Source: Dyella halodurans
GTDB taxonomy: Bacteria; Pseudomonadota; Gammaproteobacteria; Xanthomonadales; Rhodanobacteraceae
Assembly (NCBI RefSeq): GCF_026283925.1
Contig: NZ_JAPDPF010000002.1
Span: 620,001 to 684,000 of the forward strand
DNA length: 64,000 nt
Reading direction: 5' to 3'
The notes beneath the pieces are model-generated. The model did no database searches. It was not told the origin of the DNA and saw nothing but the letters and a program-made list of their open reading frames with translations. Of this stretch, positions 30,998 to 49,665 are shown piece after piece; within the stretch, counting starts at the first letter, position 1, and each line of letters begins with the position of its first letter. A program made the translations under genes and the position numbers.

Positions 30998-31029
30998 AGC
31001 TTTTTTGTGCGGATTCTCTCAAACGTCGA

Positions 31030-32235
31030 TCAAAGCTCGACGCAGTCGAAACGACGATCGGCGCTGACGTCTTCCTCGTAGTTCACGTCTGCGCGGCCGA
31101 AGCCGAACAGGCGCAGGAAGTCCTGCTTGTAGCCGGCGTAGTCGGTGAGCTGCGGGAGGTTCTCGGTGGTGACGGTGGGCCACATCGCCTTGCAGGCCTG
31201 CTGCACATCGTCACGCAGCTCCCAGTCGTCGAGACGCAGGCGACCTTCGTCGTCCGTGGTCGGCGCGTTGTGGTCCTTGCGATACAGGGACTCGCGGAAC
31301 AGGCGATTGATCTGCTCGATGGTGCCTTCGTGGAGGCCCTTTTCCTTCATGATGCGGAACACCATGGAGACGTACAGCGGAATCACCGGGATCGCCGCGC
31401 TCGCCTGGGTCACCACCGACTTCATCACGCCGACGTAGGCTTCGAGCCCTTCGGCGGCGTGGCGCTGCTTCAGCTGACGCGCGGTGTTGTCCAGGTGCTG
31501 CTTGGCCTGGCCCAGGGTGCCGTGCCAGTAGATCGGCCAGGTGATCTCGGTGCCCACGTAGCTATAGGCCACGGTCTTGGCTTGCTTGGCCAGCACGCCG
31601 GCCTCGCTCAACGCGTCGATCCACAGCTGCCAGTCCTCGCCACCCATGACGGTGACGGTGTCCTTGATTTCCTGCTCGGTGGCCGGCTCCACCGACACCT
31701 GCACCACGGTGTCCTTGTTGGTGTCGATCGAGGTGGCGGTAAACGTCTCGCCGATGGTCTTGAGCGAGGAGCGCACGACTTCACCGGTATCCGGCAGCTT
31801 GCGCACCGGCGAGGCCAGCGAGTAGACCACGAGGTCGATCGGGCCGCCCATCTCGTTCTTGATCAGTTCGATCGCGCGGGCGCGGGTCTCGTTGGAGAAC
31901 GCATCGCCGTTGATCGACTTGCTGTACAGGCCAGCCTGCTTGGCCAGCTTGTCGAACGCGGCGGAGTTGTACCAGCCGGCCGTGCCGGTCTTGGTCTCGC
32001 TGCTGGGCTTCTCGAAGAACACGCCGAGCGTGGCCGCGCCATAGCCAAAGGCTGCGGTGATGCGCGAGGCCAGGCCGTAGCCGGTGGAGGCACCAATCAC
32101 CAGCACGCGCTTGGGACCGTCGCCAAGGCTGCCTTGCGCCTTGGTGATGTCGATCTGTTCAAGCACATTGCGCTCGCATCCGACCGGATGAGCCGTAATG
32201 CAGATAAAGCCACGCACCTTGGGATTGATGATCAC
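31030..32235 (-). CDS. fabV: Enoyl-ACP reductase FabV (trans-2-enoyl reductase)
   Basis: FabV performs the last reduction in each fatty-acid elongation cycle, using NADH. The 401-residue protein starts [17 protein letters not shown], with the conserved GCERNV nearby. The Rossmann motif [16 protein letters not shown] follows, then VYSLASPVR. The catalytic Tyr-x8-Lys is in [11 protein letters not shown], one residue longer than in FabI. FabV enzymes are known for tolerance to triclosan. No fabI is seen here. The gene stands alone, flanked on both sides by matching REP-pair elements. Confidence 0.95.
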
Positions 32236-32355
32236 TCGCTAGCTCCTGGTAGCAAACCGCAAACCGGCATGATAACCCGGGCCCCGGGCCATGCGCTGCC
32301 GTAGGGATCCGGCTGCGAGGTGCCTGCCCCGCGAGGGAAGCCTCACGAAAGTCCT

Positions 32356-32440
32356 CGTCATTCCCGCGAAAGCGGGAATCCAGTGCCTTTGGCTTCGTGG
32401 GGCTGAAAGTCGCTGGATTCCCGCTTTCGCGGGAATGACG
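32356..32440. repeat. REP-pair (BIME-like) element right of fabV
   Basis: Two facing copies of the CATTCCCGCGAAAGCGGGAA palindrome with CAGTG/CGCTG extensions and a spacer of about 25 bp, nearly identical to 30912-30997. It lies between fabV and hpnB. The remainder of 32236-32489 shows no gene. Confidence 0.85.
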
Positions 32441-32489
32441 GGGGGAGGCTCGGCTTTCTTGAGGTTCCCAAGGGTGGCCTATGCAGACA

Positions 32490-33596
32490 TCAGGCGTTGT
32501 AGACCCGCCCCTTCCACTGCGACCGCACGCCACGCCAGTAACGGATGGCCGAACTCCAGGTCATGGCGAGATAGAGCGTCGCGCTGAGCGGCAGCAGCAG
32601 GGCCCACAGCGGGGACATCCGGTAGTAGCGGAGCATCGGCAGGTAGCTCGCGGTCATGGCCAGCCACGCGGTCAAGGCCAGGGGCCAGACCTGCGGCGCG
32701 GCGAGCAAGGCCAACGGCGCGCCATAGGCCAGGGCAAAGACGGCCGTCACCGCCAGCAACAGCAAGGTGGAATAGCCAAGCTGGGTGAACGCCGAACGGG
32801 CCACCATCTGATGGATCGACCCCAGGCTGCCGTAAGGGCGCAAGCTCACCACATCACGGCTCAGCCCTAGCCAGGTGCGATAGCCCGACTGTTTGACCTG
32901 GCGCGCCAGGGTGCAATCGTCGATCAAGGCATCACGCAGGCTGGCAAATGCACCGATACGCTGCAGCACCTCCGTATCCACCAGGATGCAGCCGCCTGCC
33001 GCCGCCGCAACCAGTCGACTCTTTGAATTGGACAACGCAAACGGATAGAGCAGCTTGAAGTAGTAGACGAAGACGGGCAGCAGCAGGCGATCCCAGAAAC
33101 TGGTTCGTCGCAGGTCGGCCATCAGCGACACCAACTGACGTTGTTCGCGGCGCTTGTGCGCCACCAGGGTGGCCAGCATGCCCGGCCGCAGCTGGATATC
33201 GGCGTCCAGCAGCAAGGTCAGCGGCGTGCGCACCTGCTTGCTGCCCTGCTCCAGGGCCCATAGCTTGCCGGCCCAGCCTTCCGGCAAAGGCTGGCCGCTG
33301 ATCACGCGGGTACCTGGAAAGGCAGCAGCGATGCTGGCGGTGGCGTCGGTGGACTGGTCGTCGACCACGATGACCTGGAGCCCCTTCCCCTGCGCTTGCA
33401 GACCCGCGAGGGTGACGCCAAGCACGTCGCCCTCGTTGCGCGCGGGAATCAGCACGGTGACGTCGCTGAAATCGAACGCCTGGCCCGCGGCCGGATCGGC
33501 CTCGAGATGCTCGCGCGTGCTCCAGGGCCGCCAGGGCACCAGCAGCAGACCCAGCCACATCAGGGCGGGCACTAGGGCACACGCAAGCATGAACAT
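32490..33596 (-). CDS. hpnB: Hopanoid biosynthesis glycosyltransferase HpnB
   Basis: A 368-residue membrane-anchored GT2-family protein. There is one N-terminal TM segment (ACALVPALMWLGLLLVPW), then the GT-A domain with VTVLIPARNEGDVLGVTL, VIVVDDQSTDATASI, LLLDADIQLRPGML (DxD-type) and DALIDDCTLARQVKQ, and three or so C-terminal TM segments. Homologues occur next to hpnA and hpnH in many hopanoid loci. The acceptor has not been firmly established; mutants elsewhere have little effect on major hopanoids. It follows hpnH by 5 bp on the same strand, so the two form one unit. Confidence 0.9.
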   Translation of the reverse strand: MFMLACALVPALMWLGLLLVPWRPWSTREHLEADPAAGQAFDFSDVTVLIPARNEGDVLGVTLAGLQAQGKGLQVIVVDDQSTDATASIAAAFPGTRVISGQPLPEGWAGKLWALEQGSKQVRTPLTLLLDADIQLRPGMLATLVAHKRREQRQLVSLMADLRRTSFWDRLLLPVFVYYFKLLYPFALSNSKSRLVAAAAGGCILVDTEVLQRIGAFASLRDALIDDCTLARQVKQSGYRTWLGLSRDVVSLRPYGSLGSIHQMVARSAFTQLGYSTLLLLAVTAVFALAYGAPLALLAAPQVWPLALTAWLAMTASYLPMLRYYRMSPLWALLLPLSATLYLAMTWSSAIRYWRGVRSQWKGRVYNA

Positions 33597-33601
33597 CGGC
33601 G

Positions 33602-34744
33602 TCAGTGGCCGGCATCCGCTCCGGTAGTGGCGCTACGGCGTTGAATGGCGCTGATCGGGATGTGCACCGCGGTGGCGTCGGCACGCTCGCCATACAACAC
33701 CGGCAGATCGGGAGCCATCGCTCCTTCGGTGCGCGGGCCAAACGTCGCCACGCGGGCAGCCTTCAGCGGATGCGCGAAGGTATCGTTCACCGCGCTGCCT
33801 TCGAAGCCGCAGTGCGCCATGCAGTTATCGCACTTGGGATTGATGCCGACGCCGTACTTGTCCCACTCGGTGTCTTCCATCAACTCCTTGTAGGTCTTGG
33901 CATAACCCTCGTCGACCAGCAGATAGCAGGGCTTTTGCCAACCGAAGATGTTGTAGGTGGGATTGGACCAGGGCGTGCACTGGTAGCTCTGGTTGCCGGC
34001 AATGAAGTCGAGGAACATCGACGACTGGTTGAATACCCACTTGCTCTTGCGTTCCTTGCCGAGCCTGAAGATGTCGCGGAACAGCTGCTTGCTTTCGGTA
34101 CGCCCCAGGAACACGTCCTGGCGCGGTGCATGCTGGTAGCTGTAGCCGGGTGACACGGTGATGCCTTCGATGCCGAGCGACATCGCGAAATCGAAGAAGT
34201 CCGCGATCTCTTCCGACGGCTCGCTATTGAACAGCGTGCAATTGATGGTCACGCGGAACCCGCGCGACAAGGCGAGCTTGATCGCGGTCACCGCCTTGTC
34301 GAATACACCATCCATGCATACCGAGGCGTCGTGGCGCTTCTCCAGGCCGTCGAGATGAATTGACCAGGTGAAATACGGCGAAGGCGTGTATTCGTCGATG
34401 TGCTTCGGCAACAGGATCGCGTTGGTGCACAGATAAACGAACTTCTCGCGGGCGATGATGCCCTGGACGATCTGCGGCAGCTCCTTGTGAATCAGCGGCT
34501 CGCCTCCGGGAATGGAAACGACCGGTGCATCGCACTCGTCCACGGCGCTCAAGGCGTCCTCGACGCTCATGCGTTTCTGCAGGATGTCTTTCGGATGATC
34601 GATCTTGCCGCAACCGGCGCAGGCCAGATTGCACTGGAACAATGGCTCCAACATCATCGCCAGCGGATAGCGCGACTGGCCGCTGAGTTTCTTGCCGACG
34701 ATGTAGCTGGCGATCTTGACCTGCTGAATAAGAGGAATGCCCAA
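33602..34744 (-). CDS. hpnH: Adenosyl-hopene transferase HpnH (radical SAM)
   Basis: HpnH attaches a 5'-deoxyadenosyl group to diploptene, giving adenosylhopane, the first step of side-chain extension. I place the start at a TTG (34744), because GAGGAG lies just upstream and the protein then begins MGIPLIQQVKIASYIVG like its family. The [4Fe-4S]-binding CNLACAGCGK gives Cys38, Cys42 and Cys45. PVVSIPGGEPLIHKEL is the GGE motif, and a SPASM-like Cys cluster (CDNCMAHCGF) lies near the C-terminus. The length of 380 aa is normal. It leads a two-gene unit with hpnB. It needs reduced flavodoxin or ferredoxin, so the fpr gene in this locus is of interest. Confidence 0.93.
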   Translation of the reverse strand: MGIPLIQQVKIASYIVGKKLSGQSRYPLAMMLEPLFQCNLACAGCGKIDHPKDILQKRMSVEDALSAVDECDAPVVSIPGGEPLIHKELPQIVQGIIAREKFVYLCTNAILLPKHIDEYTPSPYFTWSIHLDGLEKRHDASVCMDGVFDKAVTAIKLALSRGFRVTINCTLFNSEPSEEIADFFDFAMSLGIEGITVSPGYSYQHAPRQDVFLGRTESKQLFRDIFRLGKERKSKWVFNQSSMFLDFIAGNQSYQCTPWSNPTYNIFGWQKPCYLLVDEGYAKTYKELMEDTEWDKYGVGINPKCDNCMAHCGFEGSAVNDTFAHPLKAARVATFGPRTEGAMAPDLPVLYGERADATAVHIPISAIQRRSATTGADAGH

Positions 34745-34868
34745 CGGAATCTCCTCGTAGCGTATCGACCGACCTCTCCGACACTTCGCCATAGCCATGG
34801 CGGAAAACAAGTGCCGGAGCCGTCATGCGTAGGTATTGAGTATATCCATCCAATTAACCGTGCTGCCC

Positions 34869-36306: not shown

Positions 36307-37464
36307 ATGCCGACCCTGCCTGTTACCGACATGCTTCTACTCTGGATCGGCACCGGCCTCAATCTGGCGGCCGCGGCTTATGCCTGCGTGAGCCTGTGGG
36401 CGTGGTTTCGCTGCCGCCACGCGCAGGCTGGGCGACCGGCAGGCCGGGCCATCCACCCGGTCAGCGTGTTCAAACCCCTGCATGGCGCCGAGCCGCGTCT
36501 CTACGAAAACCTGCGCAGTTTCTGCCTGCAGGACCACGCCAACTATCAATTGCTGTTAGGCGTACGCGAAGCGGATGATCCGGCCATCGCGGTGGTGGAA
36601 CGACTGATCGCGGAATTCCCCGCGCTGCCCATCCGGCTGGTGGTCGACCCACGCATCCATGGGGCCAACCTCAAAGTCAGCAACCTGATCAATCTTCGGC
36701 CTCACGCGCAACACGACTGGCTGGTGCTGGCCGACAGCGACATCAGCGTGTCCGTGGATTATCTGTCGCGGGTGACGGCACCGCTGGCCGATGCGGACGT
36801 GGGCATCGTCACCTGCCTCTACCATGGCGTCGCCGAAGGCGGCTTCTGGTCCCGACTGGGTTGCCTGTTTATCGATGACTGGTTTGCACCGTCGGCACGG
36901 CTCGCGCATGCCTTCGGCTCCACCCGCTTCGCCTTCGGCTCCACCATTGCCTTGCGCCGCGAGACCCTGGACGCCATCGGCGGCTTCGAGATTTTATGCG
37001 ACACCCTCGCGGACGACTTCTGGCTTGGCGAGCTGAGCCGCCGCGCGGGGCTGCGTACGGTGCTGTCCGACCTGGTGGTGGGTACCGAGGTCAGTGAGAC
37101 GAGCTTTCACGCGCTGTGGACACATGAGCTGCGTTGGTTGCGCACGATCCGTGCGATCGCTCCGGCCGGCTTCGCCATGACCTTCGTATGCTTCACCTGG
37201 CCCGTGCTGGTGCTCGGCCTGGTGCTGGCGCCTACCCCGCCCAATGCCTTGCTGGCGCTGCTGGGCGGCGGCGCCAGGGTGGTGCGCTATGTGGCGCAAC
37301 GGCGTGGCACGGCCCGAACCTCGCCTTGGCACGACCTCGGGTTGACCCCATACCGTGACCTGCTGTTACTGTTCGAGTGGGCGATGGCACTCACCCGCTG
37401 GCGGGTCGAGTGGCGCGGACGCGTATTGCATGCTCGCAAGCATGCGCCCACGCGGTATTCTTGA
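36307..37464 (+). CDS. hpnI: Hopanoid glycosyltransferase HpnI
   Basis: HpnI transfers N-acetylglucosamine to bacteriohopanetetrol, starting the glucosamine head group. The start at 36307 (MPTLPVTDMLLLWIG) is taken; the frame is open further upstream but not conserved. The 385-residue protein has an N-terminal TM, then a GT2 domain of the ceramide-glucosyltransferase type (GT21): HPVSVFKPLHGAEPRLYENL, YQLLLGVREADDPAI, LVLADSDISVSVDYL (D-x-D), FGSTIALRRETLDAIGGFE and HELRWLRTIRAI (the QxxRW-like motif). C-terminal TM segments follow. It begins the hpnI-J-K-L unit. Confidence 0.92.
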   Translation: MPTLPVTDMLLLWIGTGLNLAAAAYACVSLWAWFRCRHAQAGRPAGRAIHPVSVFKPLHGAEPRLYENLRSFCLQDHANYQLLLGVREADDPAIAVVERLIAEFPALPIRLVVDPRIHGANLKVSNLINLRPHAQHDWLVLADSDISVSVDYLSRVTAPLADADVGIVTCLYHGVAEGGFWSRLGCLFIDDWFAPSARLAHAFGSTRFAFGSTIALRRETLDAIGGFEILCDTLADDFWLGELSRRAGLRTVLSDLVVGTEVSETSFHALWTHELRWLRTIRAIAPAGFAMTFVCFTWPVLVLGLVLAPTPPNALLALLGGGARVVRYVAQRRGTARTSPWHDLGLTPYRDLLLLFEWAMALTRWRVEWRGRVLHARKHAPTRYS

Positions 37465-37536: not shown

Positions 37537-38964
37537 ATGAAGACGCTATTTCTGCAAGCCCCGTCCTTTGACGGTTTTGATGGTGGTGCGGGCTCCCGTT
37601 ACCAGTGCAGGCGCGAGGTCAAGAGTTTCTGGTACCCCACCTGGCTGGTCCAGCCGGCTGCGCTGGTGCCTGACTCGCGCGTCATCGATGCTCCGGTGGA
37701 AGAGCTATCGGTGGAGGCGACGCTGGACATCGCCGCCGACTACCCGCTGGTGATCATCCACACCAGCACGCCGTCCTTCCCCACCGACGCGAAATTTGCC
37801 GAACTGCTCAAGGCCCGCCGGCCTGACATCGTGATTGGCCTGATCGGCGCCAAGGTGGCGGTTGACCCCGTCGGGTCGCTACAGGCGACAACAGCCATCG
37901 ACTTCGTGGCGCGCGAGGAATTCGACTACACCTGCAAGGAAGTCGCCGAGGGGCTTCCCTTCAGCGACATCAACGGCATCAGCTACCGGCTGGCCGACGG
38001 CAGCATCCAGCACAATCCGGCGCGCGCGACCATCGAGAACATGGACGACCTGCCCTTCGTGGCACCGATCTACAAGCGCGACCTGAAGATCGAAGGTTAC
38101 TTCATCGGTTACCTCAAGCACCCTTACGTTTCGATCTACACCGGTCGCGGCTGCCGCTCGAAATGCACGTTCTGCCTGTGGCCGCAGACCGTCGGCGGGC
38201 ATCGCTACCGCGTACGCTCGGTCGCCAACGTGCTCGCCGAAACGCAGTGGATCAAGGACAACATGCCCGAAGTCCGCGAGCTGATGTTCGACGACGATAC
38301 GTTTACCGACAGCGCCAACATGGAACGCGTGCACGAGATTGCCCGCGGGCTGCATGCACAAGGTTGGACCTGGAGCTGCAATGCCAAGGCCAACGTGCCC
38401 TATGAGTCGCTGAAGATCATGCGGGAAAACGGTTTGCGCGTGCTGCTGGTGGGCTACGAGTCGGGCGACGACCAGATCCTGCACAACATCAAGAAGGGCC
38501 TGCGCACCGATATCGCGCGCACGTTCGCGGAAAACTGCCGCAAGCTCGGCATTCGCGTGCACGGCACCTTCATCCTCGGCCTGCCGGGCGAAACCAAGGA
38601 AACCATCGCCAAGACCATCGAGTACGCCAAGGAGATCAACCCGTTCACCATCCAGGTGTCGCTGGCCGCGCCGTATCCCGGCACGACCATGTACAAACAG
38701 GCGATCGAGAACGGTTGGCTTGAGGCGAACAAGGCCATCAACCTGGTCGACGACAAGGGCGTGCAGATTGCGCAAATCAGCTATCCGCACTTGTCGACGG
38801 AAGAGATCTTCCACGGCGTGGAGACGTTCTATCGCAGCTTCTACTTCCGACCTTCGAAGATCTGGGAGATCGTCAAGGAGATGGCGGGCAGCTGGGAGAT
38901 GACCAAGCGACGATTGCGCGAAGGCGTGGAGTTCTTCCGTTTCCTGCATGCGCACGAGGCTTGA
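37537..38964 (+). CDS. hpnJ: Hopanoid radical SAM protein HpnJ (cyclitol ether synthase)
   Basis: HpnJ converts bacteriohopanetetrol glucosamine to the cyclitol ether by ring contraction. The 475-residue protein has an N-terminal cobalamin-binding-type domain (1-130) with TLFLQAPSFDGFDGG and LVIIHTSTPSFPTDAKFAEL. The radical SAM domain follows, with Cys206, Cys210 and Cys213 in GCRSKCTFC followed by LWPQTVGG. Later motifs are MFDDDTFTDSANMERV, VGYESGDDQILHNIKKG and GTFILGLPGETKET. The B12-binding His motif is not obvious, so the N-domain may be structural. It starts 72 bp after hpnI and ends overlapping the longest reading of hpnK, so co-transcription is very likely. Confidence 0.92.
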   Translation: MKTLFLQAPSFDGFDGGAGSRYQCRREVKSFWYPTWLVQPAALVPDSRVIDAPVEELSVEATLDIAADYPLVIIHTSTPSFPTDAKFAELLKARRPDIVIGLIGAKVAVDPVGSLQATTAIDFVAREEFDYTCKEVAEGLPFSDINGISYRLADGSIQHNPARATIENMDDLPFVAPIYKRDLKIEGYFIGYLKHPYVSIYTGRGCRSKCTFCLWPQTVGGHRYRVRSVANVLAETQWIKDNMPEVRELMFDDDTFTDSANMERVHEIARGLHAQGWTWSCNAKANVPYESLKIMRENGLRVLLVGYESGDDQILHNIKKGLRTDIARTFAENCRKLGIRVHGTFILGLPGETKETIAKTIEYAKEINPFTIQVSLAAPYPGTTMYKQAIENGWLEANKAINLVDDKGVQIAQISYPHLSTEEIFHGVETFYRSFYFRPSKIWEIVKEMAGSWEMTKRRLREGVEFFRFLHAHEA

Positions 38965-39817
38965 GCGGGCAGCTCTCGCTGCAGCCATGAATGCCGCGCT
39001 GGCACCGACTCGACCGCGTCTGATCGTGACGGCCGATGATTTCGGCCTGCACGAAGCGGTGAACGAGGCGGTGGAGCGCGGCTACCGTGAGGGCGTACTG
39101 CGCGCCGCTAGCCTGATGGTGACGGCGCCCGCCGTGGCAGACGCGGTGGCCCGCGCGCGCAATTCGCCTGGCCTCGCCGTGGGTTTGCATCTGGTGTTGG
39201 CGGACGGCCAGGCGGCCTTGCCGCCAACGCAGATCCCGGACCTGGTCGATGCCCAGGGTCGTTTCGGCAGCGCCATGGCGCGCGACGGCGTTCGTTTCTT
39301 CTTCCTGCCGCGCGTGCGACGTCAACTGGCGGCCGAGATTCGAGCCCAGTTCGAGGCCTTCGCCGCGACTGGCCTGAGCCTCGACCACGTCAATGCGCAC
39401 AAGCATTTCCATCTGCACCCCACCGTGCTCTCGCTGCTGCTTTCCATCGGCCGCGATTACGGCCTGCGCGCGGTGCGCTTGCCGGCAGAGCCAGGCATGG
39501 GGCCATGGCTGCAACCCTGGCTGGCCCTGATGCGCCGACGCCTGCGTCGGGCCGGCGTGCTCTGCAATGACCATGTGTTCGGCATCCGCCACAGCGGCGG
39601 CATGGACGAGAGCGCGCTGCTGGAGGTGCTTGGACACTTGCCGGAGGGTCTGTCGGAGCTCTATCTGCACCCCGCCGTGCACGGCCAACTGACGTCAAGC
39701 ATGGCCGACTACCGTCACGCGGATGAGTTGGCCGCACTATTATCCCCACGTGTGCAACGGGCCATCGCGGAACGTTGTTTGTTGTGTCATGGCTTTGGGG
39801 ATCCGGCGGCTGCATGA
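38948..39817 (+). CDS. hpnK: Hopanoid deacetylase HpnK (YdjC/ChbG-like)
   Basis: HpnK removes the acetyl group from N-acetylglucosaminyl bacteriohopanetetrol, giving BHT glucosamine. The 289-residue protein has the YdjC-fold metal site: RLIVTADDFGLHEAVNEA (Asp-Asp), VGLHLVLADGQ (His) and LDHVNAHKHFHLHPTVL (His-rich). The C-terminal half has SELYLHPAVHGQL. Start is uncertain: the ATG at 38948 overlaps the end of hpnJ by 17 bp, while an ATG at 38987 would begin MNAALAPTRPRLIV, closer to homologues. Neither has a strong ribosome site, which suggests coupling to hpnJ. It overlaps hpnL by 4 bp. Confidence 0.9.
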   Translation: MRTRLERAALAAAMNAALAPTRPRLIVTADDFGLHEAVNEAVERGYREGVLRAASLMVTAPAVADAVARARNSPGLAVGLHLVLADGQAALPPTQIPDLVDAQGRFGSAMARDGVRFFFLPRVRRQLAAEIRAQFEAFAATGLSLDHVNAHKHFHLHPTVLSLLLSIGRDYGLRAVRLPAEPGMGPWLQPWLALMRRRLRRAGVLCNDHVFGIRHSGGMDESALLEVLGHLPEGLSELYLHPAVHGQLTSSMADYRHADELAALLSPRVQRAIAERCLLCHGFGDPAAA

Positions 39818-40848
39818 AATATCTCGTTTATCTCGCCGGCCTGCTCGGCCTCGCTGCTGCCATCGTATTGGTCGTGCACCAGGACTGGGGCGCCATTCGC
39901 AATGCGTTCGACCACGCGGGCTGGGCGCTGCTCTGGCTGTTGCCGTTCCACGCCGTGCCGCTGCTGGTGGACGTGATGGGCTGGCGCGCCCTGCTGGCAC
40001 CACGCGATCCGCAACGACGTGCTGGCGTGCCCTTCCTGTTCTGGGTGGGCGGCGTCCGCGAGGCCTGCAATCGCCTGCTGCCGGTGGCGAATATCGGCGG
40101 CGAGATCGTCGGCATCCGGCTGGTCAAATGGCGCGGCCTAGGTGGCGCGGTGGTGGCCGCGAGCGTGGTGATCGAAGTGCTGCTGACCCTGGTCAGCCAG
40201 TACATCTTCGCGGCGCTGGGCATCCTCATGCTGATTGGCTTGACCAGGCATATCGGCACCCTGAATTCGGTCGTTGGCGGCCTGGTCGCCAGCCTGCCCT
40301 TGCCCATCGTGCTGATTTACCTGCTGCGTCATGGCCAGCTGTTTTCGCGCCTGGAAGCGTTCGTGGAAAAGACCATGGGCGGCCCCTCACGCTTTACCGA
40401 ACTGCTCGACGGCGCGCGCCTCGACGAGGAAATCCGCGCGTATTACCGCGAGCCGCTGCGCCTCGCCGTGGCCTGCACGTGGCAGCTCGCCGGCTTCATC
40501 CTGGGCAGCTTCGAGACCTGGTTCGCCCTGCTCCTGCTCGGCTATCCGATCACCGTATGGGATGCCGTCGCGATCGAGGCGGTGACGCAGTCGCTGCGCC
40601 ATATCATCTTCTTCGTACCGGCGGGCCTGGGCATCCAGGAAGGCGGCCTGGTCCTGTTCGGCAACATCATCGGCCTGCCGGCCGACGCTGCGATCGCATT
40701 GTCGCTGGTCAAGCGTGCGCGCGAAGTCGGCTTCGGCTTGCCCATGCTGATTTCGTGGCAATGGGCCGAAGCCCGCCGCCTGCGCCTCGGTTGGCGCGCG
40801 CGCAGCGCCACCGCACTCCCGGATGCGCAAAACAGCAAGCCTTCATAA
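39814..40848 (+). CDS. hpnL: HpnL membrane protein (UPF0104 family)
   Basis: A 344-residue integral membrane protein with about 7-8 hydrophobic segments. It carries the lysylphosphatidylglycerol synthetase-like/UPF0104 pattern: EACNRLLPVANIGGEIVGIRLV, VVIEVLLTLVSQYIFAALG, HIIFFVPAGLGIQEGGLVLFG and a C-terminal SLVKRAREVGFGLP. PAGLGIQEGG is the signature loop. HpnL homologues sit in many hopanoid loci, but the biochemical role is not established; flipping or handling of a lipid intermediate is an inference. The ATG overlaps the hpnK stop (ATGA). The ferritin-like gene starts 14 bp after its stop. Confidence 0.9.
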   Translation: MKYLVYLAGLLGLAAAIVLVVHQDWGAIRNAFDHAGWALLWLLPFHAVPLLVDVMGWRALLAPRDPQRRAGVPFLFWVGGVREACNRLLPVANIGGEIVGIRLVKWRGLGGAVVAASVVIEVLLTLVSQYIFAALGILMLIGLTRHIGTLNSVVGGLVASLPLPIVLIYLLRHGQLFSRLEAFVEKTMGGPSRFTELLDGARLDEEIRAYYREPLRLAVACTWQLAGFILGSFETWFALLLLGYPITVWDAVAIEAVTQSLRHIIFFVPAGLGIQEGGLVLFGNIIGLPADAAIALSLVKRAREVGFGLPMLISWQWAEARRLRLGWRARSATALPDAQNSKPS

Positions 40849-40862
40849 CCATGAGGTGACCG

Positions 40863-41756
40863 ATGTCCAACGACGCTACCGTCGCTGCCGCCGACCATGC
40901 CATGCGGCATTGGCTGGGCACCGAACCCGGTCGCATCAAGATCGGCTCGGATGCGCACAAGCGGCTGTTCTGCCGCATGTTGCTGGACACGCACAATCCG
41001 TACAAACCGGCCGTGATCGATTGGCCCAGCTTGAGCCCGGATGCGCTGCAGCGCATCACCTCACTGCCGATCTGGGACATCGCCGTGCAGACCGAGGGCC
41101 GCGCCACCCTGCGCGTCGAAACCTATACCAACACCGTCGACGATCCGCTGCTGCGCGAAGCGCTGATCATGGATGGCGGTGAAGAAGCTCGGCACAAGGT
41201 CGTGCTGAGCAAGATGGTCGAGGCCTATGGCATCGCGCTGGCACCGGAACCCGAGTACGAGGTACCCAAGGACCCCGAATGGGGCTGGCTGGTCACCGGC
41301 TATAGCGAATGCATCGACAGCTTCTTTGCCTTTGGCCTGTTCGAGTCGGCCAAGCGCACCGGCTACTTCCCGGTGGAACTGGTGGAGACGTTCGAACCGG
41401 TGATCCAGGAAGAGGCCCGCCACATCCTGTTCTTCGCCAACTGGGTGGCCTGGTATCGGCACCAGCTGCCGTGGTGGCGGCGCCTGCCGTTCGAGCTGAA
41501 GGTGATGCGGGTATGGATCTTCCTGATCTGGGAGCGCATCGGCATCGCCAAGGGCCTGGACAGTGCTGGCGAGATGCAGGATGCCAATTTCACCCTGACT
41601 GGCCACCAGCAGATCGGGCTGGACCTGAAGCTGGGCGAGATGATCGACATGTGCCTGAGCCAGGACAAGTACCGCATGGACGGCTACGACGAACGCCTGC
41701 TGCGCCCCACCTTCGTGCCGCGTATGGCCCGCCTGGCGCGTCGCTTCGTACGCTAG
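40863..41756 (+). CDS. Ferritin-like diiron-site protein in hopanoid operon
   Basis: A 297-residue soluble-looking helical protein, 14 bp after hpnL and preceded by GAGGTGA. Two Glu-x-x-His motifs are visible: EEARH at 107-111 and EEARH at 183-187. Each sits in a helix (ALIMDGGEEARHKVVLSKM and VETFEPVIQEEARHILFF). Further carboxylates lie at Glu79 (WDIAVQTEGRATLR) and in GYSECIDSFFAFGLFE. This is the layout of ferritin-like diiron carboxylate proteins. The C-terminal third has an amphipathic stretch (RRLPFELKVMRVWIFLIW) that could contact membrane. I know of similar proteins near hopanoid genes but no proven function. An oxygenase or desaturase acting on a hopanoid is a plausible inference. 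Confidence 0.75.
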   Translation: MSNDATVAAADHAMRHWLGTEPGRIKIGSDAHKRLFCRMLLDTHNPYKPAVIDWPSLSPDALQRITSLPIWDIAVQTEGRATLRVETYTNTVDDPLLREALIMDGGEEARHKVVLSKMVEAYGIALAPEPEYEVPKDPEWGWLVTGYSECIDSFFAFGLFESAKRTGYFPVELVETFEPVIQEEARHILFFANWVAWYRHQLPWWRRLPFELKVMRVWIFLIWERIGIAKGLDSAGEMQDANFTLTGHQQIGLDLKLGEMIDMCLSQDKYRMDGYDERLLRPTFVPRMARLARRFVR

Positions 41757-41760
41757 GCAC

Positions 41761-42738
41761 TCAGTGATGCAGGCTGAACCAGGCCACGGCGTCCTCCAGG
41801 GCGAGCCGGACCGGGCCTGCCGCATAACCGAGTTCGCGCTCGGCCTTGGCGCTGGAGAAGAACATGCGCTTGCGGGACATGCGCACTTCCTCGACCGTGG
41901 CGATGGGCTGGGTGCCGCTCACCCTCGCCCATGCCTCCGCCACATACGCCACCGGCATTACCGCGGCGTGCGGCAGCCGCCAGCGCGGTGGCTCGCGCCC
42001 GACGATGTCCGCAATCTCGGTCAACAGTTCGCGCAGGCTGAGGTTGCTGCCACCCAGGATGTAGCGCTCTCCCACCACGCCATGCTGGAAAGCCAGCCAA
42101 TGACCGTCCGCTACGTCGTCCACGTGGACCACGTTGAGGCCGGTGTCGACATAGGCGGGCAAGCGGCCGGCGACGGCGTCGCGCACGACCCGCCCGGTGG
42201 GCGTGGGCTTGATGTCGCGAGGGCCAACCGGCGTCGACGGATTCACGATCACCACTGGCAGCCCAGCTGCCGCATAGGTCCTGACCATGGCCTCGGCAAG
42301 GAACTTGGAGCGCTTGTAGTGGCCCACCATATCGTCGAGCGATACCGGCGTGCCTTCGTCACCGGAGCTGCCGTCCCGAGGAATGCCCAAGGTCGCCACG
42401 CTGCTCGTGTAGACGATACGCGACACACCTGCCTGCCTGGCCGCCTCGAGCAAGGCCCGCGTGCCATCGACATTGGTTCGATAGAGCTCATCCGGTTGCG
42501 GAGCCCACAGCCGGTAGTCGGCCGCCACGTGGAACACCGCGTCGCAGCCTTTGCACGCGCTGGCGAGCGACGTCGCATCGGTGAGATCGCCTTCGACCAC
42601 CTCGACGTCGAGCCCTTGCAGATTGCGACGATCCGAGCCGGCACGCGCCAGCACGCGGACGCTGTGGTTCTCACGCAGCAGGCGGCGGGCAACCGCCGAG
42701 CCGACGAAGCCGGTCGCTCCGGTGACCAAGGTCTTCAT
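41761..42738 (-). CDS. hpnA: Hopanoid-associated sugar epimerase HpnA
   Basis: A 325-residue extended SDR of the NAD-dependent epimerase/dehydratase family. It starts at 42738 with MKTLVTGATGFVGSAVARRL (GxxGxxG). DLTDATSL follows, then FHVAADYRLWAPQPDELY, YTSSVATLGI, VGHYKRSKFLAEAMV with the YxxxK catalytic pair, and NPSTPVGPRDIKPTPTGR. The last motif is characteristic of HpnA. The substrate is not established; a role in side-chain or head-group sugar handling is assumed from clustering. It is on the opposite strand between the ferritin-like gene (stops 4 bp apart, convergent) and the divergent squalene synthase gene. Confidence 0.9.
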   Translation of the reverse strand: MKTLVTGATGFVGSAVARRLLRENHSVRVLARAGSDRRNLQGLDVEVVEGDLTDATSLASACKGCDAVFHVAADYRLWAPQPDELYRTNVDGTRALLEAARQAGVSRIVYTSSVATLGIPRDGSSGDEGTPVSLDDMVGHYKRSKFLAEAMVRTYAAAGLPVVIVNPSTPVGPRDIKPTPTGRVVRDAVAGRLPAYVDTGLNVVHVDDVADGHWLAFQHGVVGERYILGGSNLSLRELLTEIADIVGREPPRWRLPHAAVMPVAYVAEAWARVSGTQPIATVEEVRMSRKRMFFSSAKAERELGYAAGPVRLALEDAVAWFSLHH

Positions 42739-43054
42739 GGTGGTGTCGCCACCAGGCTGCGCCTGCGCATCGCCAGCATGAACCCTGGGTACATAAGGCT
42801 GGTGATCCATGACCACGGGGGAAGGTATGCGCGCATTATGGATGAACCACGCGCCGTTGGCGCAAACGCAGCGACGCACCCCGGCGCCGGCTTCCTTTCC
42901 CCTGCCTTTCATGGGCAGGAGCAGGCCTCCGGCGCAGCCTCGACACTTCAAAGACATTCCGTTTGGTCAGATGGCTGCGTCCTTCAAGATCGGGGTGCTA
43001 ACATGCCTGCGTCGTACGTTTTTCTGTATGTGAATACATAAGGAAAGCCGAGGC
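42739..43054. promoter_or_regulatory. Divergent control region of hpnA and the squalene synthase-shc operon
   Basis: A 316-bp spacer without a convincing gene. It must hold promoters for hpnA and for the squalene synthase-shc-hpnG-hpnN unit. A small dyad, TGTAT-GTGA-ATACA, lies at 43025-43038, just before the AAGGAAAG ribosome site. It could be an operator, but the evidence is only its symmetry. Confidence 0.35.
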
Positions 43055-44221
43055 ATGTCAATGTTTGAATCAAAGCACGTCGCTGCGATCGCACCAGCCA
43101 ACGCTAGTGCTTATCAGGAAGCCATACTTCCGCGCGTATCCAGGACGTTCGCATTGACCATACCGCAGCTGCCGCCTGCACTTCGCGAGGTGGTTGCCAA
43201 CGCCTATCTGTTGTGCCGCATTGCCGACACCATTGAGGACGAACCGACGCTCTCGGTGGACCAGAAAGGTGTCTACGAAAGCGCCTTTGTTGACGCCGTC
43301 ATCGGCCGCATCGATGCACAACGCTTCGCAGCCGAACTGGCGCCGAAGTTGTCCGAGGCAACCTCTGCAAGTGAGCGTGAGCTGTTGTCCCGACTCCCGC
43401 TCGTGCTGGAGGTCACGCAGACCTTCAATCCGACCCAGCACACGGCCATCGTCGACTGCCTGAAAACCATGTCGCAAGGCATGCACGACTTTCAGTGCGT
43501 GGTTGGCCTGCAAGGCCTGGCCACGCTGCGTGACCTGGACCGCTATTGCTACTGCGTGGCCGGCGTCGTGGGGGAAATGCTGACGAAGCTGCTGATCAAC
43601 TTCGAGCCGGAGCTGGCGCCGCAATCGAAAACCCTGATGCGCCTGGCGGTGTCATTTGGCCAAGGCCTGCAGATGACCAATATCCTCAAGGACCAGTGGG
43701 AGGATCGCAGCCACGGCGTGTGCTGGTTGCCGCAGGATGTCTTCTCCCGCCACGGCGCGCGCCTGCACGATCTGCGTCCCGGTTATCAGGACGCCAACTA
43801 CGCCAAGGCCATGATCGAACTGATAGGGGTGGCGCACTCGCATCTCTGTCGTGCGGTGGACTACACGCTTATCGTGCCAGCCAGGCACGCCGGCTTCCGC
43901 CGCTTCTGCTTGTGGAGCATCGGCCTGGCCGTACTGACCCTGCGCAATCTGCAGGACCGGCTCGATTTCTCCTGCGGCACGCAGGTCAAGGTCTCCCGCG
44001 CGGCCGTCGCCCAGACCATGGGCCTGACCCGACTCACCGACAAATACGATACCGGCGTGCGCTGGTTGTTCACGACCGCCGCGCGCAAGCTGCCGCTGAC
44101 GCCGCTGTCGCCCGAGTGGGACGAGCCCCAGGGTCCCCCGCACACATGGCCCAGGCGCAGGGCCTCGTATTTGAATGGCATTCCCTCCCGGCACGATGCC
44201 AAGAACGCACGATCACTATGA
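43055..44221 (+). CDS. Squalene synthase (farnesyl-diphosphate farnesyltransferase type)
   Basis: Condenses two farnesyl diphosphates to squalene, the substrate of the cyclase encoded next. The 388-residue protein begins with SRTFALTIPQLPPALREVV and YLLCRIADTIEDEP; the first Asp-rich motif is DTIED at 58-62. The second is DQWED at 213-217, after QGLQMTNILK. YCYCVAGVVGEMLTKLL is the family signature between them. These features resemble the one-enzyme squalene synthase of eukaryotes and Methylococcus more than the shorter HpnC/HpnD pair. No hpnC, hpnD or hpnE is in the window. The C-terminus is a hydrophilic tail, not a membrane anchor. Its stop overlaps the shc start by 4 bp. Confidence 0.85.
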   Translation: MSMFESKHVAAIAPANASAYQEAILPRVSRTFALTIPQLPPALREVVANAYLLCRIADTIEDEPTLSVDQKGVYESAFVDAVIGRIDAQRFAAELAPKLSEATSASERELLSRLPLVLEVTQTFNPTQHTAIVDCLKTMSQGMHDFQCVVGLQGLATLRDLDRYCYCVAGVVGEMLTKLLINFEPELAPQSKTLMRLAVSFGQGLQMTNILKDQWEDRSHGVCWLPQDVFSRHGARLHDLRPGYQDANYAKAMIELIGVAHSHLCRAVDYTLIVPARHAGFRRFCLWSIGLAVLTLRNLQDRLDFSCGTQVKVSRAAVAQTMGLTRLTDKYDTGVRWLFTTAARKLPLTPLSPEWDEPQGPPHTWPRRRASYLNGIPSRHDAKNARSL

Positions 44222-46224
44222 CGGAGACTTCAGCTCCTGTTGACGATGCGGCCCGCCCGGCCCATCGCGATGAAGAGCCTGAGACCACCCGAATCGATCA
44301 GGCCATCGAGCGCGCGCGCAAGGCCTTGCTTGCACGGCAGCGGCCTGACGGGCACTGGTGCTTCGAGTTCGAAACCGACTGCACCATCTCGGCCGAATAC
44401 ATCCTGATGATGCACTTCCTCGATGACATCGACGAGGTGTTGCAGGAAAAACTCGCGCGTTACATCCGGCTCAAGCAGCGCCTGGATACGCACGGCGGCT
44501 GGCCGCTCTACCAGGACGGCGCCATCGACCTGTCCTGCACGGTCAAGTCCTACTACGCTCTGAAGGCCGCCGGAGACCCCGCCGAGGCGCCGCATATGCA
44601 GCGCGCCCGCGACGCCATCCTGCAACGGGGTGGCGCTGCCCGGAGCAATGTGTTCACGCGCATCCTGCTGGCAATGTTCGAACAGGTGCCCTGGCGCGCG
44701 GCGCCGTATGTGCCGGTGGAGATCATGTTGTTTCCGCGCTGGGCACCGTTTCATCTGGACAAGGTTTCGTATTGGGCGCGCGCCACCATGGTGCCGCTGT
44801 TCATTCTTTGCTCGCTCAAGGCCCGGGCCAAGAATCCGCGCCGTGTCGGCGTGCCCGAGCTGTTCGTCACGCCGCCGCAACAGGAACGGCACTATTTCGC
44901 CGTCGGCGGCTTCGCCAGCCGGTGCTTTCTCGTGCTGGACAAGCTCGGGCGCGCGTGTGATCCGTTGGTCCCCAGGGCATTGCGGCAAAAAGCGGTAAAG
45001 AAGGCCGAACAGTGGTTTCTGGCGCGACTCAACGGCGAGGACGGCGTGGGCGCCATCTTCCCGCCGATGGTCAATACGCTGGAGGCGCTGGACCTGCTCG
45101 GTTACGCGAAGGACCATCCCGCGCGCGCCACCTGCCTCAAGTCCTTGCAGAAGCTGATCGTGCAGAGCGCCGATGGCACGGCGTATTGCCAACCCTGCGT
45201 TTCGCCCGTGTGGGACACCGGCTGGGCCGCCATGGCCTTGCTGCGCGCCTCGGGTGACGCGGCCACGCAAGCCGCGGTGACACGTGCGCTGGACTGGATG
45301 GCGCCGTTGCAGGAGCTGGAAGTGAAAGGCGACTGGGCGGCACAGGCGCCCGACCTGCCGCCCGGCGGCTGGGCATTCCAGTACGCGAATGCCTACTTTC
45401 CCGACCTGGACGACACCGCGCTGGTCGCCGGCCTGCTCCACGTGGCTGTGCTGGGTACGCCGCAGGAAGGCATGTACCGCGCGCGCATCGAGCGCGCTGC
45501 CGACTGGCTGGTCGGTATGCAGTCCGACAATGGCGGCTTCGCCGCCTTCGATCGCAACAACACGCACTACCACATCAACCAGATTCCGTTCGCCGACCAT
45601 GGCGCCATGCTCGATCCGCCCACCGAGGATGTGTCCGGTCGCGTCCTCGCCTGCCTGGGTGTACTGCGGCGCCCGCAGGATCGTGTCGCCATCGCGCGCT
45701 GCGTCGCCTACCTGAAAACCGCCCAGCAGCCTGACGGTTCCTACTGGGGGCGCTGGGGCACCAACTATATTTACGGCACCTGGTCGGTGCTGGCCGGACT
45801 GGCCCTGGTGGGCGAGGACCTCAGTCAGCCGTGGATCCGCAAATCCATCGACTGGCTGGTCGCCAGGCAGCACGCCGATGGCGGCTGGGGCGAGACCAAT
45901 GACAGTTATTTCGATCCTGCGCTACGCGGCAGCAACGGCGGCATCAGCACGGCGCACAGCACGGCCTGGGCCCTGCTGGGCCTGCTCGCGGTCGGCGAGC
46001 ACCGCTCCGAGGCGGTTCGCCGGGGCATTCAATGGCTGCTCGACGACCAGCAAGCCAGCGATGAGCGCGAAGCAGGGTTGTGGTATCACAGCAGCTATAA
46101 CGCGCCGGGTTTTCCGCGCGTCTTCTTCCTCAAGTACCACGGCTATACCGCCTACTTTCCGCTATGGGCCTTGACCCGCTATCGGCGCCTGATGCAATCG
46201 ACACCCTCGCCGGGGACGCAGTGA
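44218..46224 (+). CDS. shc: Squalene-hopene cyclase
   Basis: Shc (HpnF) cyclises squalene to hopene and hopanol, a monotopic membrane enzyme on the inner membrane. The start at 44218 forms ATGA with the upstream stop; the frame is open further back but antiparallel in sense to conserved sequence. The 668-residue protein has the catalytic DLDD at 396-399 (DxDD) in YFPDLDDTALV. Many QW-type repeats are present (QRPDGHWCFEFE, QQPDGSYWGRWG, QHADGGWGETNDSY). The substrate-channel region is HLDKVSYWARATMVPL, and CVSPVWDTGWAAMALL precedes the active site. All key features are intact. It is followed immediately by hpnG. Confidence 0.97.
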   Translation: MTETSAPVDDAARPAHRDEEPETTRIDQAIERARKALLARQRPDGHWCFEFETDCTISAEYILMMHFLDDIDEVLQEKLARYIRLKQRLDTHGGWPLYQDGAIDLSCTVKSYYALKAAGDPAEAPHMQRARDAILQRGGAARSNVFTRILLAMFEQVPWRAAPYVPVEIMLFPRWAPFHLDKVSYWARATMVPLFILCSLKARAKNPRRVGVPELFVTPPQQERHYFAVGGFASRCFLVLDKLGRACDPLVPRALRQKAVKKAEQWFLARLNGEDGVGAIFPPMVNTLEALDLLGYAKDHPARATCLKSLQKLIVQSADGTAYCQPCVSPVWDTGWAAMALLRASGDAATQAAVTRALDWMAPLQELEVKGDWAAQAPDLPPGGWAFQYANAYFPDLDDTALVAGLLHVAVLGTPQEGMYRARIERAADWLVGMQSDNGGFAAFDRNNTHYHINQIPFADHGAMLDPPTEDVSGRVLACLGVLRRPQDRVAIARCVAYLKTAQQPDGSYWGRWGTNYIYGTWSVLAGLALVGEDLSQPWIRKSIDWLVARQHADGGWGETNDSYFDPALRGSNGGISTAHSTAWALLGLLAVGEHRSEAVRRGIQWLLDDQQASDEREAGLWYHSSYNAPGFPRVFFLKYHGYTAYFPLWALTRYRRLMQSTPSPGTQ

Positions 46225-47037: not shown

Positions 47038-49665
47038 GTGTTCAGAGCACTGCACAAAGGTCTGGTCTGGCTGGTCGACCAAAGCGGTCGCCATCACTAC
47101 ATCGTGTTGCTGCTGGCGGCGCTGCTGGCGGCGCTGAGCCTGATGGCCGCGTCCCATCATCTGAGCATCGATACGAATTCCGACCACCTGTTTTCCGAGC
47201 AGTTGCCCTGGCGCCAGCGTAGCGAAGCCTTTGCCCGGCAGTTTCCCCAGTTCAGCGATACGCTGACCGTCGTCGTCCGCGCGCCAACGGCCGAGGAAGC
47301 ACGCATTACCGCCAAGGCGCTGAATGAGAAGCTGGCGGCGGACCCCAGCCACTTCCGCTCGTCCACCACGCCTGGCATCAGTCCCTTCTTCGATCGCCAA
47401 GGCCTCGTGCTGCTGCCGCCGAAGGATTTGTCGGACACGATCAGCAGCATGCTGCAAGCGCAGCCACTGCTCGGCCCGCTGGCGACTGACGCGTCGGCAC
47501 GCGGCCTGTTCAAGGGCATCGACCTGATGGTCGAAGGCGTCCGCCACGGCATGACCGACGATCTATCGTCGTATGACGCTGCACTCGGCAATGTGGCGGA
47601 TGCCATGGAAGCGGCCCTGGCCGGGCATGCGTCGCCGCTGTCCTGGCAAGCCTTGCTGACGCCGAATCTGGTGGGCAGCCACGGTGGCCAGGAGTTTGTG
47701 CTGGTGCATCCGGTGATGGATTTCCGTGCCCTGGAGCCTGGGCGTGCGGCTACCGAAGCGATGCTGAGGCTTGCCGCCGAGTTGCCCGCCGTCAAGGCGG
47801 GACGCGCGAAGATCAACTACACCGGCTCGGTGCCGCTGGCCGACGAAGAATTCTCCTCGCTCACCGATCGGGCCGGACCCATCGCCATTGGCAGCAGCCT
47901 GCTGCTGATCTTCTGGCTGGTGCTGGCGCTGGGCACCTGGCGACTGATCGTGCCGGTGGTGATCACCCTGGTGGTCGGACTCATCTATACGCTGGGTTTC
48001 GCCGCGCTCGCCGTCGGCCGCCTGAACCTGGTTTCGGTGGCGTTTGCCGTGCTGTTCATTGGCCTGGCCGTCGACTTCGGCATCCAGTTTGGCGTACGTC
48101 TGCATGCCCGCCAGTACAGCGACCGTACGTTTGACGATTCGCTGCACGAAACGGCGCATCGTGTGGTGAGTCAGGTCGGCCTGGCGGCGCTGGCGACCGC
48201 CTGTGGTTTCCTGGCGTTTTCACCCACGGATTTCACCGGCGTGGCCGAATTGGGCACCATCGCCGGCGTTGGCATGCTGCTGGCCCTGCTGTGCACGATT
48301 ACCGTGTTGCCGGCCCTGCTGCGCCTGCTGAGCAAGGGTTCGCCCCACGCGGAAGTGGCCTTGCCGGGCGGTGCCGCCGCGGATGGCTGGCTGGAGCGCC
48401 AACGCAAGCCGGTGCTGGTGGTGTTCGCCTTGCTGGGCTTGGCCGGCCTGTGGGGCGCGATCACCATTCCATTCGATGCCAATCCCTTGCATACGAAAAA
48501 CGCGAACAGCGAAGCCATGCGCACGCTGACCTCGTTGATGGACGATCCCAACACCAATCCGTTCACCATGGACGTGCTGGTGAAGGACCTCGCCACCGCA
48601 CAACAACTGAGCGAGCGCCTGGGCAAACTGCCCGAGGTGGCACAGGTCGTTTCGGGTGTCGATTTCGTACCCGCCGACCAGGCGGACAAGCTCGACCAGA
48701 TCGCGCAAGCCTCGGACTTGATGTATGCGGTGCTGAACCCCGGTGAAAAGGTGGCGCCGCCCAGCTATGCCGAAATGCGCGAGACGGCCAAGGACACCAG
48801 CGAGGGTATTGCCAGCGTGGCCGACAAGCTCGCGCCCAACTCGCCCTTGCGGCGCATTGGCAAGGCCCTGGGTCGACTGGCGCAGGGGACGGACGAACAG
48901 ATGGCCACCGCCAACCAGTCCTTGACGCAATTCCTGCCGTACACGCTTAACCAGTTGGCCGACTCGTTGTCGGCCCAGAAGATCACCATGCAGAGCCTGC
49001 CCGCGGATCTCAAACGCGACTGGTTCACGCCGGACGGCCAGGTACGCATCCAGGTCACGCCGACGGCCAAGGCGCAGAACACGGCCGGCTTGCGTCGCTT
49101 CGTGAAAGTCGTGCAGGACGTGGCACCGGAAGCTGCTGGTTCGGCCGTCGACACGATCAAGGCCGCGGACACGATACTCGACGCCTTCCGCGAAGCCGCT
49201 GTCTACGCCACGCTCGCCATCGGCGTCGTGTTGATGTTGGTGCTGCAGCGCTTCCGCGATGCCGGCCTGGTGCTGGCCACGTTGCTGATGTCCGCGCTGC
49301 TCACCGCCTTGCTGGCGCGGCTGCTGGGCATTTCGATCAATTTCGCCAACATCATCGCCCTGCCCTTGCTGCTTGGCGTTGGCGTGTCCTTCAATGTGTA
49401 TTTCGTGATGAACTGGCGCCACGGCATGCACCATTTCCTCGGTTCGCCGACGGCGCGCGCGATCCTGTTCTCGGCGCTTACCACCGGCACCGCGTTCGGC
49501 AGCCTGGCCATTTCCCGCCACCCGGGGACCGCCAGCATGGGCCTGGTCTTGTTGCTGAGCCTGCTCGCCGTGCTGCTGTCGACCTTCGCCTTCCTTCCCG
49601 CCGTGCTGTATTCGATCCGACCAGCCGATTCGACCAAGACAAGCGCGCACTCGCGCCCTGCCTAA
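47038..49665 (+). CDS. hpnN: Hopanoid transporter HpnN (RND superfamily)
   Basis: HpnN moves hopanoids from the inner to the outer membrane. A GTG start at 47038 follows TAAGGAGA. The 875-residue protein has the HpnN/MmpL layout: one N-terminal TM (HYIVLLLAALLAALSLMA), a large periplasmic loop, then TM clusters at about 280-440 (with AVDFGIQFGVRLHARQYSD). A second periplasmic domain is followed by a C-terminal TM cluster from about 720 on, with GLVLATLLMSALLTALLARL and LPLLLGVGVSFNVYFVMNWR. The Asp in AVDFGIQFGV suits proton coupling. It lies 79 bp after hpnG and probably ends the core hopanoid unit, with copC 30 bp after its stop. Confidence 0.93.
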   Translation: MFRALHKGLVWLVDQSGRHHYIVLLLAALLAALSLMAASHHLSIDTNSDHLFSEQLPWRQRSEAFARQFPQFSDTLTVVVRAPTAEEARITAKALNEKLAADPSHFRSSTTPGISPFFDRQGLVLLPPKDLSDTISSMLQAQPLLGPLATDASARGLFKGIDLMVEGVRHGMTDDLSSYDAALGNVADAMEAALAGHASPLSWQALLTPNLVGSHGGQEFVLVHPVMDFRALEPGRAATEAMLRLAAELPAVKAGRAKINYTGSVPLADEEFSSLTDRAGPIAIGSSLLLIFWLVLALGTWRLIVPVVITLVVGLIYTLGFAALAVGRLNLVSVAFAVLFIGLAVDFGIQFGVRLHARQYSDRTFDDSLHETAHRVVSQVGLAALATACGFLAFSPTDFTGVAELGTIAGVGMLLALLCTITVLPALLRLLSKGSPHAEVALPGGAAADGWLERQRKPVLVVFALLGLAGLWGAITIPFDANPLHTKNANSEAMRTLTSLMDDPNTNPFTMDVLVKDLATAQQLSERLGKLPEVAQVVSGVDFVPADQADKLDQIAQASDLMYAVLNPGEKVAPPSYAEMRETAKDTSEGIASVADKLAPNSPLRRIGKALGRLAQGTDEQMATANQSLTQFLPYTLNQLADSLSAQKITMQSLPADLKRDWFTPDGQVRIQVTPTAKAQNTAGLRRFVKVVQDVAPEAAGSAVDTIKAADTILDAFREAAVYATLAIGVVLMLVLQRFRDAGLVLATLLMSALLTALLARLLGISINFANIIALPLLLGVGVSFNVYFVMNWRHGMHHFLGSPTARAILFSALTTGTAFGSLAISRHPGTASMGLVLLLSLLAVLLSTFAFLPAVLYSIRPADSTKTSAHSRPA

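Follow-up and report, generated by a model that had tools for sequence, protein, structure and literature searches.

The gene that closes the hpnI-J-K-L run of the window (the whole 64,000-nucleotide stretch of Dyella halodurans DNA analysed here) encodes a protein that we call FERR1, and members of the FERR1 family form part of the hopanoid pathway in many Pseudomonadota. Alignments and predicted structures mark them as probable diiron enzymes of a family that is new and carries no name. Hopanoids are membrane lipids that resemble sterols. The genes for bacteriohopanepentols and hexols and for ring unsaturation are called unknown in passages of a November 2025 survey, which also report that no pentol gene candidate was found in the surroundings of hpn clusters (PMC12583986). 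We consider FERR1 a good candidate for the missing hydroxyl-adding step of hopanoid synthesis. Its specific assignment as the O2-dependent hydroxylase that makes the C-31 hydroxyl of bacteriohopanepentols is tentative, and we regard it as nearly an even bet.

The first-pass annotation of this stretch had placed the gene directly after hpnL and had described two E-x-x-H motifs at residues 108-111 and 184-187 together with extra carboxylates. All of these were found again: the hpnL stop and the FERR1 start are separated by 14 bases with a GAGG ahead of the ATG, both motifs read E-A-R-H, and E78 and E149 are the additional carboxylates that complete an E / ExxH / E / ExxH set. The hpnI, hpnJ, hpnK and hpnL products each score above their NCBIfam cut-offs, and FERR1 is the last gene of the run (Table 1). 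From the residues at which the models begin to match, the true start of hpnK may lie further downstream than listed, and the listed ORF start of hpnA is probably too far upstream. The squalene synthase encoded at 43055-44221 has as its top match the one-enzyme type TIGR01559 (117.6 bits, under the cut-off of 286.75), which outscores HpnC and HpnD. Elsewhere in the window, SRFRGNDE- and WIPAFAGMT-like peptides recur in listed ORFs of both strands at about 30946-31081 and 32159-32533; we take such translations to be a common mark of REP-like elements, small palindromic repeats dispersed through a genome.

Table 1 The FERR1 gene and hopanoid features around it in the window.
Feature	Position	Strand	Remarks
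hpnH (adenosylhopene transferase)	33602..34810	-	TIGR03470; co-occurrence marker in the genome surveys
hpnI	36307..37464	+	TIGR03472; opens the hpnI-J-K-L-FERR1 run; start placed at the observed ATG
hpnJ	37537..38964	+	TIGR03471
hpnK	38948..39817	+	TIGR03473; model match from residue 24
hpnL	39775..40848	+	TIGR03476, 320 bits; immediately 5' of FERR1; start as in the ORF list
Ribosome-binding-like GAGG	40853..40856	+	6 bases 5' of the FERR1 ATG; read directly
FERR1 (ferritin-like diiron protein, subject of this work)	40863..41756	+	297 aa; predicted ligands E78, E108/H111, E149, E184/H187
hpnA	41761..42957	-	TIGR03466; convergent with FERR1; model match from residue 74
Squalene-hopene cyclase	44218..46224	+	TIGR01507
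hpnN (transporter)	47038..49665	+	TIGR03480

The six candidate ligands do not vary across 22 aligned sequences (the window protein and 21 relatives of 66-90% identity). Because all six are also identical in 46 out of 46 aligned sequences, the window protein included and identities going down to 30%, the ligand pattern seen in these alignments is beyond chance. When 132 sequences were extracted, some genes being counted twice via overlapping loci, each ligand was kept in at least 125 of the 126 orthologues and in 6 out of 6 paralogues. The AlphaFold models are essentially all-helical, with mean pLDDT of 84.8 and 88.8, and a structure prediction of the metal site, proposed earlier as a check, puts all six predicted ligands on four predicted helices (71-89, 95-121, 138-166 and 171-201). 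In alignment and model FERR1 therefore carries the E / ExxH / E / ExxH arrangement on a helical bundle that marks the ferritin-like superfamily, and sequence and model both uphold the ferritin-like diiron architecture first proposed for this helical protein. A transmembrane segment is unlikely because the top 19-residue Kyte-Doolittle mean is only 1.13.

We compared the distribution of FERR1 with that of HpnH, scored over its cut-off, in 397 Pseudomonadota genomes with a completeness of 90% or more. HpnH was present in 49 of these genomes and FERR1 or its paralogue in 15, all of which were HpnH-positive, and none of the 348 HpnH-negative genomes carried FERR1 (Fisher p = 3e-15, a value that ignores relatedness, the 15 positives being spread over nine families). 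In the window's own family, 16 out of 36 relatives have HpnH; exactly these 16 carry FERR1, which is absent from all 20 HpnH-negative members. In a further family, f68, which is probably Acetobacteraceae and shares five genomes with the 397-genome sample, 79 out of 150 genomes carry FERR1, 131 carry HpnH and 77 carry both (Fisher 1e-4); the two FERR1-positive genomes in which HpnH was not detected at E 1e-100 are G805 (93% complete, 380 contigs) and G830 (99% complete, 350 contigs). Six of the first sample's 15 positives (G261, G265, G068, G191, G372 and G432) lack HpnJ at E 1e-130. This rules out a dependence of FERR1 on HpnJ, and the cyclitol ether is therefore not an obligatory substrate.

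A search for relatives found at least 584, the best 80 of which are the named loci discussed here. Among these best 80 of at least 584, 32 loci have one or more further genes of a 13-protein hopanoid query set in the examined flank, and 48 are orphans without any other gene of the set there. The search for HpnH in 50 of these named genomes (the 48 with orphan loci, plus Azomonas and Azotobacter, again from the best 80 of at least 584) was positive in 50 out of 50. The first-pass annotation had held that homologues found mainly outside hopanoid loci would speak against a hopanoid role. Taken literally this is the case, for 48 of the best 80 out of at least 584, but it does not break the link with hopanoids because 48 out of 48 orphan-locus genomes carry HpnH. 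In all, FERR1 is restricted to HpnH genomes in the Pseudomonadota samples (15/15; 16/16 with 0/20; 50/50; 77/79), and the proposed tie to hopanoids is borne out more strongly than the operon alone could tell. These samples cover Pseudomonadota only. FERR1 matches were also found on plasmids, in 13 records that are all from Burkholderiales (12 without a listed gene beneath the match and one unannotated). One FERR1 gene lies with hpn genes on a MAG contig labelled Mycobacteriaceae (L086) and clusters (SH-aLRT 81) with MAGs assigned to Burkholderiales and Rhodospirillales; its label is possibly a binning or naming error.

The surroundings of FERR1 vary between lineages. Gene names in the relatives' loci were given by similarity to the genes of the window, where hpnB, hpnG and the isomerase of the query set presumably have the identities that we assign to them. 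Among the best 80 of at least 584 relatives, FERR1 comes after hpnL in the loci of Dyella, Rhodanobacter, Azomonas, Azotobacter and Nevskia, with the complete hpnI-J-K-L-FERR1 order in those of Dyella, Azotobacter and Nevskia, adjoins hpnB or the squalene-hopene cyclase gene in Cupriavidus and some MAGs, and is an orphan in the examined Burkholderia, Paraburkholderia, Pandoraea and Rhodoblastus loci. The order hpnK-FERR1-hpnL occurs in one genome of family f63 (G244, locus L107), and FERR1 adjoins hpnA in G191 and G295. By eye, no partner gene common to seven orphan loci was recognised in their ORF listings. The FERR1 proteins of G025 (L122) and G035 (L121), which belong to other genera of the window's family, cluster with the f68 type and not with Dyella, a placement that suggests horizontal transfer; no hpn gene of the query set lies inside 19 kb around FERR1 in G025. 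A 1.9-Mb genome has two FERR1 copies 13.5 kb apart that score 384.7 bits each (L185, G807:C1:1001000-1020500), perhaps a recent duplication.

If FERR1 works on side-chained hopanoids as a ferritin-like, non-haem diiron oxygenase, it would bind two Fe(II) through E78, E108, H111, E149, E184 and H187 for reaction with O2. The diiron centre, in a peroxo or high-valent state, would then take a hydrogen from C-31, the CH2 beside the polyol, and the OH would rebound, converting bacteriohopanetetrol (BHT), the cyclitol ether or a precursor to the pentol series with electrons from a separate reductase. We infer the metal content, substrate, site and reaction, as well as the catalysis of a hopanoid modification, and which modification is argued from distribution. 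The C-31 assignment is supported by the six-ligand site in 46 out of 46 sequences, the resemblance of the predicted fold to R2-type oxidases, a weak profile match to a MiaE-like hydroxylase, the link with HpnH, the operon position and the presence of FERR1 in pentol producers. According to passages of published work, Azotobacter vinelandii makes pentols and B. cepacia strains are likely to do so, and a pentol cyclitol ether is annotated in B. cenocepacia K56-2 (PMC8560942). In Frateuria aurantia, C31-hydroxylated hopanoids are said to rise with temperature (passages of PMC4339782 and PMC8537080, quoting Joyeux 2004). On the gene side, FERR1 lies inside the hpn cluster of Azotobacter beijerinckii and of one genus mate, is present in Burkholderia cenocepacia NCTC13227 (L062), and gives one match in G025, taken as F. 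aurantia.

The tabulated part of the November 2025 survey gives pentol and unsaturation data for 54 strains (PMC12583986, Table 3), in which pentols occur in 6 out of 8 Sphingomonadales producers and in 9 out of 10 Acetobacteraceae. The family to compare with the former is f63, which contains 31 HpnH-positive genomes out of 298. In its genus g279, hpnH and hpnJ are 105-108 kb apart in three genomes and on two contigs in the fourth, a spacing that fits the Zymomonas locus tags ZMO0874 and ZMO0973 given in a passage of PMC3495753; g279 is therefore probably Zymomonas and f63 probably Sphingomonadaceae. FERR1 is present in 12 of the 31 HpnH-positive f63 genomes, which is only compatible with pentols in 6/8 Sphingomonadales (p 0.11), and is absent from all four HpnH-positive g279 genomes. 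Families f56 and f66 of the 397-genome sample, which we suspect to be Hyphomicrobiales, have 18 HpnH-positive genomes (7 + 11) and FERR1 in none of them. In Table 3, the only pentol among Hyphomicrobiales is that of Enterovirga (1%), and unsaturation is limited to Afipia broomeae (43%) and Enterovirga (1%); outside that order, Sphingomonas mali, Nitrospirillum amazonense and Rhodopila show pentols or hexols but no unsaturation. It follows that the absence of FERR1 from f56 and f66, if these are Hyphomicrobiales, fits a pentol function and a desaturase function alike.

Several observations weaken the C-31 assignment. The named Rhodoblastus loci L030, L045 and L072 carry FERR1, Rhodoblastus sp. 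17X3 being one of the carriers, yet the Hyphomicrobiales of Table 3 make essentially no pentol, and the passages concerned describe the carbamoyl hopanoids known from Rhodoblastus acidophila only as BHT derivatives (PMC12583986). These loci are an unexplained exception. FERR1 is also absent from two out of four Azotobacter genomes (searched for FERR1 only), and G805 and G830 carry it without HpnH. Finally, aminotetrols are on record for Desulfovibrio, in the part of the literature covered, and suggest an O2-independent C-31 route elsewhere. Given inferred lineage identities and weak statistics, we lean to the view that pentol occurrence fits the spread of FERR1 somewhat better than ring unsaturation does.

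The main rival, which we consider unlikely, casts FERR1 as the missing enzyme of hopanoid ring desaturation, at delta-6 and perhaps at delta-11. Its diiron site would then take two hydrogens from the ring system, much as soluble acyl-ACP desaturases treat fatty acids, and the Foldseek matches of FERR1 include stearoyl-ACP desaturase 1afr (E 9.5e-3, TM 0.37/0.33). The genes for unsaturated bacteriohopanepolyols are among those called unknown in the survey passages, unsaturation at 3-82% is tabulated for 8 out of 10 Acetobacteraceae strains (PMC12583986, Table 3), f68, probably this family, has FERR1 in 77 out of 131 HpnH-positive genomes, and B. cenocepacia, a FERR1 carrier, has an annotated unsaturated cyclitol ether, putatively delta-6, in the passages of PMC8560942. 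Acetobacteraceae and B. cenocepacia are however uninformative as to the reaction because both make pentols and unsaturated hopanoids. The Sphingomonadales speak rather against a desaturase, since unsaturation is tabulated for one of the eight producers, at 1%, as opposed to FERR1 in 12/31 of the f63 genomes (a borderline p 0.04 for unsaturation above 1%, 0/8; a non-significant p 0.23 when the 1% species is counted, 1/8). Moreover, unsaturation was not found in the literature passages on Azotobacter or Frateuria, and the place of FERR1 in the operon, next to hpnI-K with their side-chain functions, points rather to a side-chain step.

Such a step could also be another oxidation of side-chained hopanoids, for instance of BHT to a 32-oxo intermediate, or a change not yet in lipid inventories, to which we likewise assign a low probability. 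The co-occurrence with HpnH would be equally expected for any side-chain reaction, the HpnJ-less positives show that the cyclitol ether need not be the substrate, and a two-step 32-oxo route to pentols is discussed in the passages of the survey (PMC12583986). No lipid with such a change was however found to track FERR1, and the 32-oxo compound described there was reported from Zymomonas whereas g279, the probable Zymomonas, lacks FERR1. We regard as quite improbable that FERR1 is a non-oxygenase, an iron- or peroxide-handling ferritin- or rubrerythrin-like protein that would shield the radical-SAM enzymes HpnH and HpnJ or the membrane. With 46 relatives, the sole Pfam families matching at E 0.01 (an E-value limit, not the curated cut-offs) were Rubrerythrin in six (best 6e-6), Ferritin_2 in three (best 1.5e-4) and AurF in one, neither Rubrerythrin nor Ferritin_2 being matched by the window protein, and the HpnH-less G830 is rated nearly complete. 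General protection, on the other hand, would not predict a gene confined to hopanoid genomes and missing from every HpnH-negative genome of the first sample, and in fold the model comes closest to R2-type oxidases.

FERR1 has a paralogue, FERR2, which is 30-34% identical to it, keeps the six ligands and reaches about 190-222 bits against the A1 profile. FERR2 forms a separate clade (SH-aLRT 100) of 9 out of 110 rows, thinned from 154, in a tree built by a quick method without bootstrap and with long-branch warnings (L100, L101 and L102 among others), the FERR1 and FERR2 labels having been assigned by score beforehand. In f68, FERR2 occurs in 21 genomes, all 21 of which also have FERR1; the two genes are 27-257 bases apart in 19 of them and on separate contigs in G781 and G855. 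At 2 out of 11 scanned loci both diiron motifs lie within one open frame, of 1404 residues in G346 (L106, G346:C1:385000-404000) and of 645 residues in G791 (L173, G791:C1:2320000-2334000), apparently natural two-domain FERR1-FERR2 fusions; the linker of L106 is rich in basic residues. In the hpn cluster of G191, FERR1 stands by hpnA and FERR2 by hpnN. FERR2 may perform a second step. Rather doubtfully, we propose an aerobic pair of side-chain hydroxylases, neighbours or fused, in which FERR1 would act on C-31 to give the pentol and FERR2 then on C-30 to give the hexol. G432 has FERR2 without FERR1, which argues against a strict order of the two.

Bacteriohopanepolyols are widely used geological biomarkers. 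If FERR1 makes pentols, penta-functionalised hopanoids of this route would signal molecular oxygen. If the FERR1/FERR2 pair is real, it would supply the first genes behind hopanoids with five and six functional groups, and related chemistry would be relevant to the aminotetrol and aminopentol biomarkers of methanotrophs. An oxygenase-type family in hpn clusters and hopanoid genomes makes the questions of the pentol and unsaturation genes testable in cultivable strains.

Searches of open-access literature (titles and abstract openings) returned no report of a FERR1-type protein in hopanoid synthesis. The window protein matches no Pfam model over its cut-off and no NCBIfam family at E 0.01, hence no Hpn model over cut-off, and no Hpn model is among the NCBIfam matches of the 46 family members at E 0.1. 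PHROGs gave no match, and even the best matches in a viral structure library were weak, most of them R2 and proteins resembling rubrerythrin or ferritin. PDB sequence searches with the single protein and with the A1 profile gave nothing useful. Among solved structures, the top Foldseek matches were R2-like ligand-binding oxidases (R2lox) and class Ib ribonucleotide reductase R2, with best E-values of 1.2e-3 and 5.0e-3, none below 0.001, at probability 1.00. On the strength of this combination of probability and E-values, we regard the fold class of the FERR1 model as clear, whereas no close structural relative stands out.

Histidine-box 'sterol desaturases', proposed for hopanoid unsaturation in passages of PMC6460317 and PMC12583986, resemble FERR1 in a proposed hopanoid modification via a non-haem iron site, but differ in being integral membrane, histidine-rich proteins with another type of ligand, a distinction drawn from published descriptions and not from sequences. 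The p-aminobenzoate N-oxygenase AurF (PF11583) aligns with the second ExxH region of FERR1 and is matched by 13 out of 22 members at E 1 or better (best 7e-4), whereas the window protein reaches 13.2 bits, its best Pfam score, under the curated cut-off of 29.6. R2lox and class Ib R2 have an all-helical diiron carboxylate fold that the FERR1 model resembles (probability mostly 0.99-1.00, TM roughly 0.4-0.57; for R2lox 1.00 and 0.43-0.57, with E 5e-3 or worse), but are only 10-18% identical to it and give no sequence-profile match, and FERR1 lies in a hopanoid operon. Hallmarks of R2lox are a Tyr-Val ether cross-link and a Mn/Fe site. MiaE is a diiron hydroxylase that acts on an isoprenoid group. 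The MiaE-like tRNA hydroxylase 5ux1, of 237 aa, has another genomic context, and no MiaE model is among the Pfam matches of the 46 relatives; it is nonetheless the best PDB match of the wider A2 profile, a weak one at E 0.017, and aligns with FERR1 with both metal half-sites in register.
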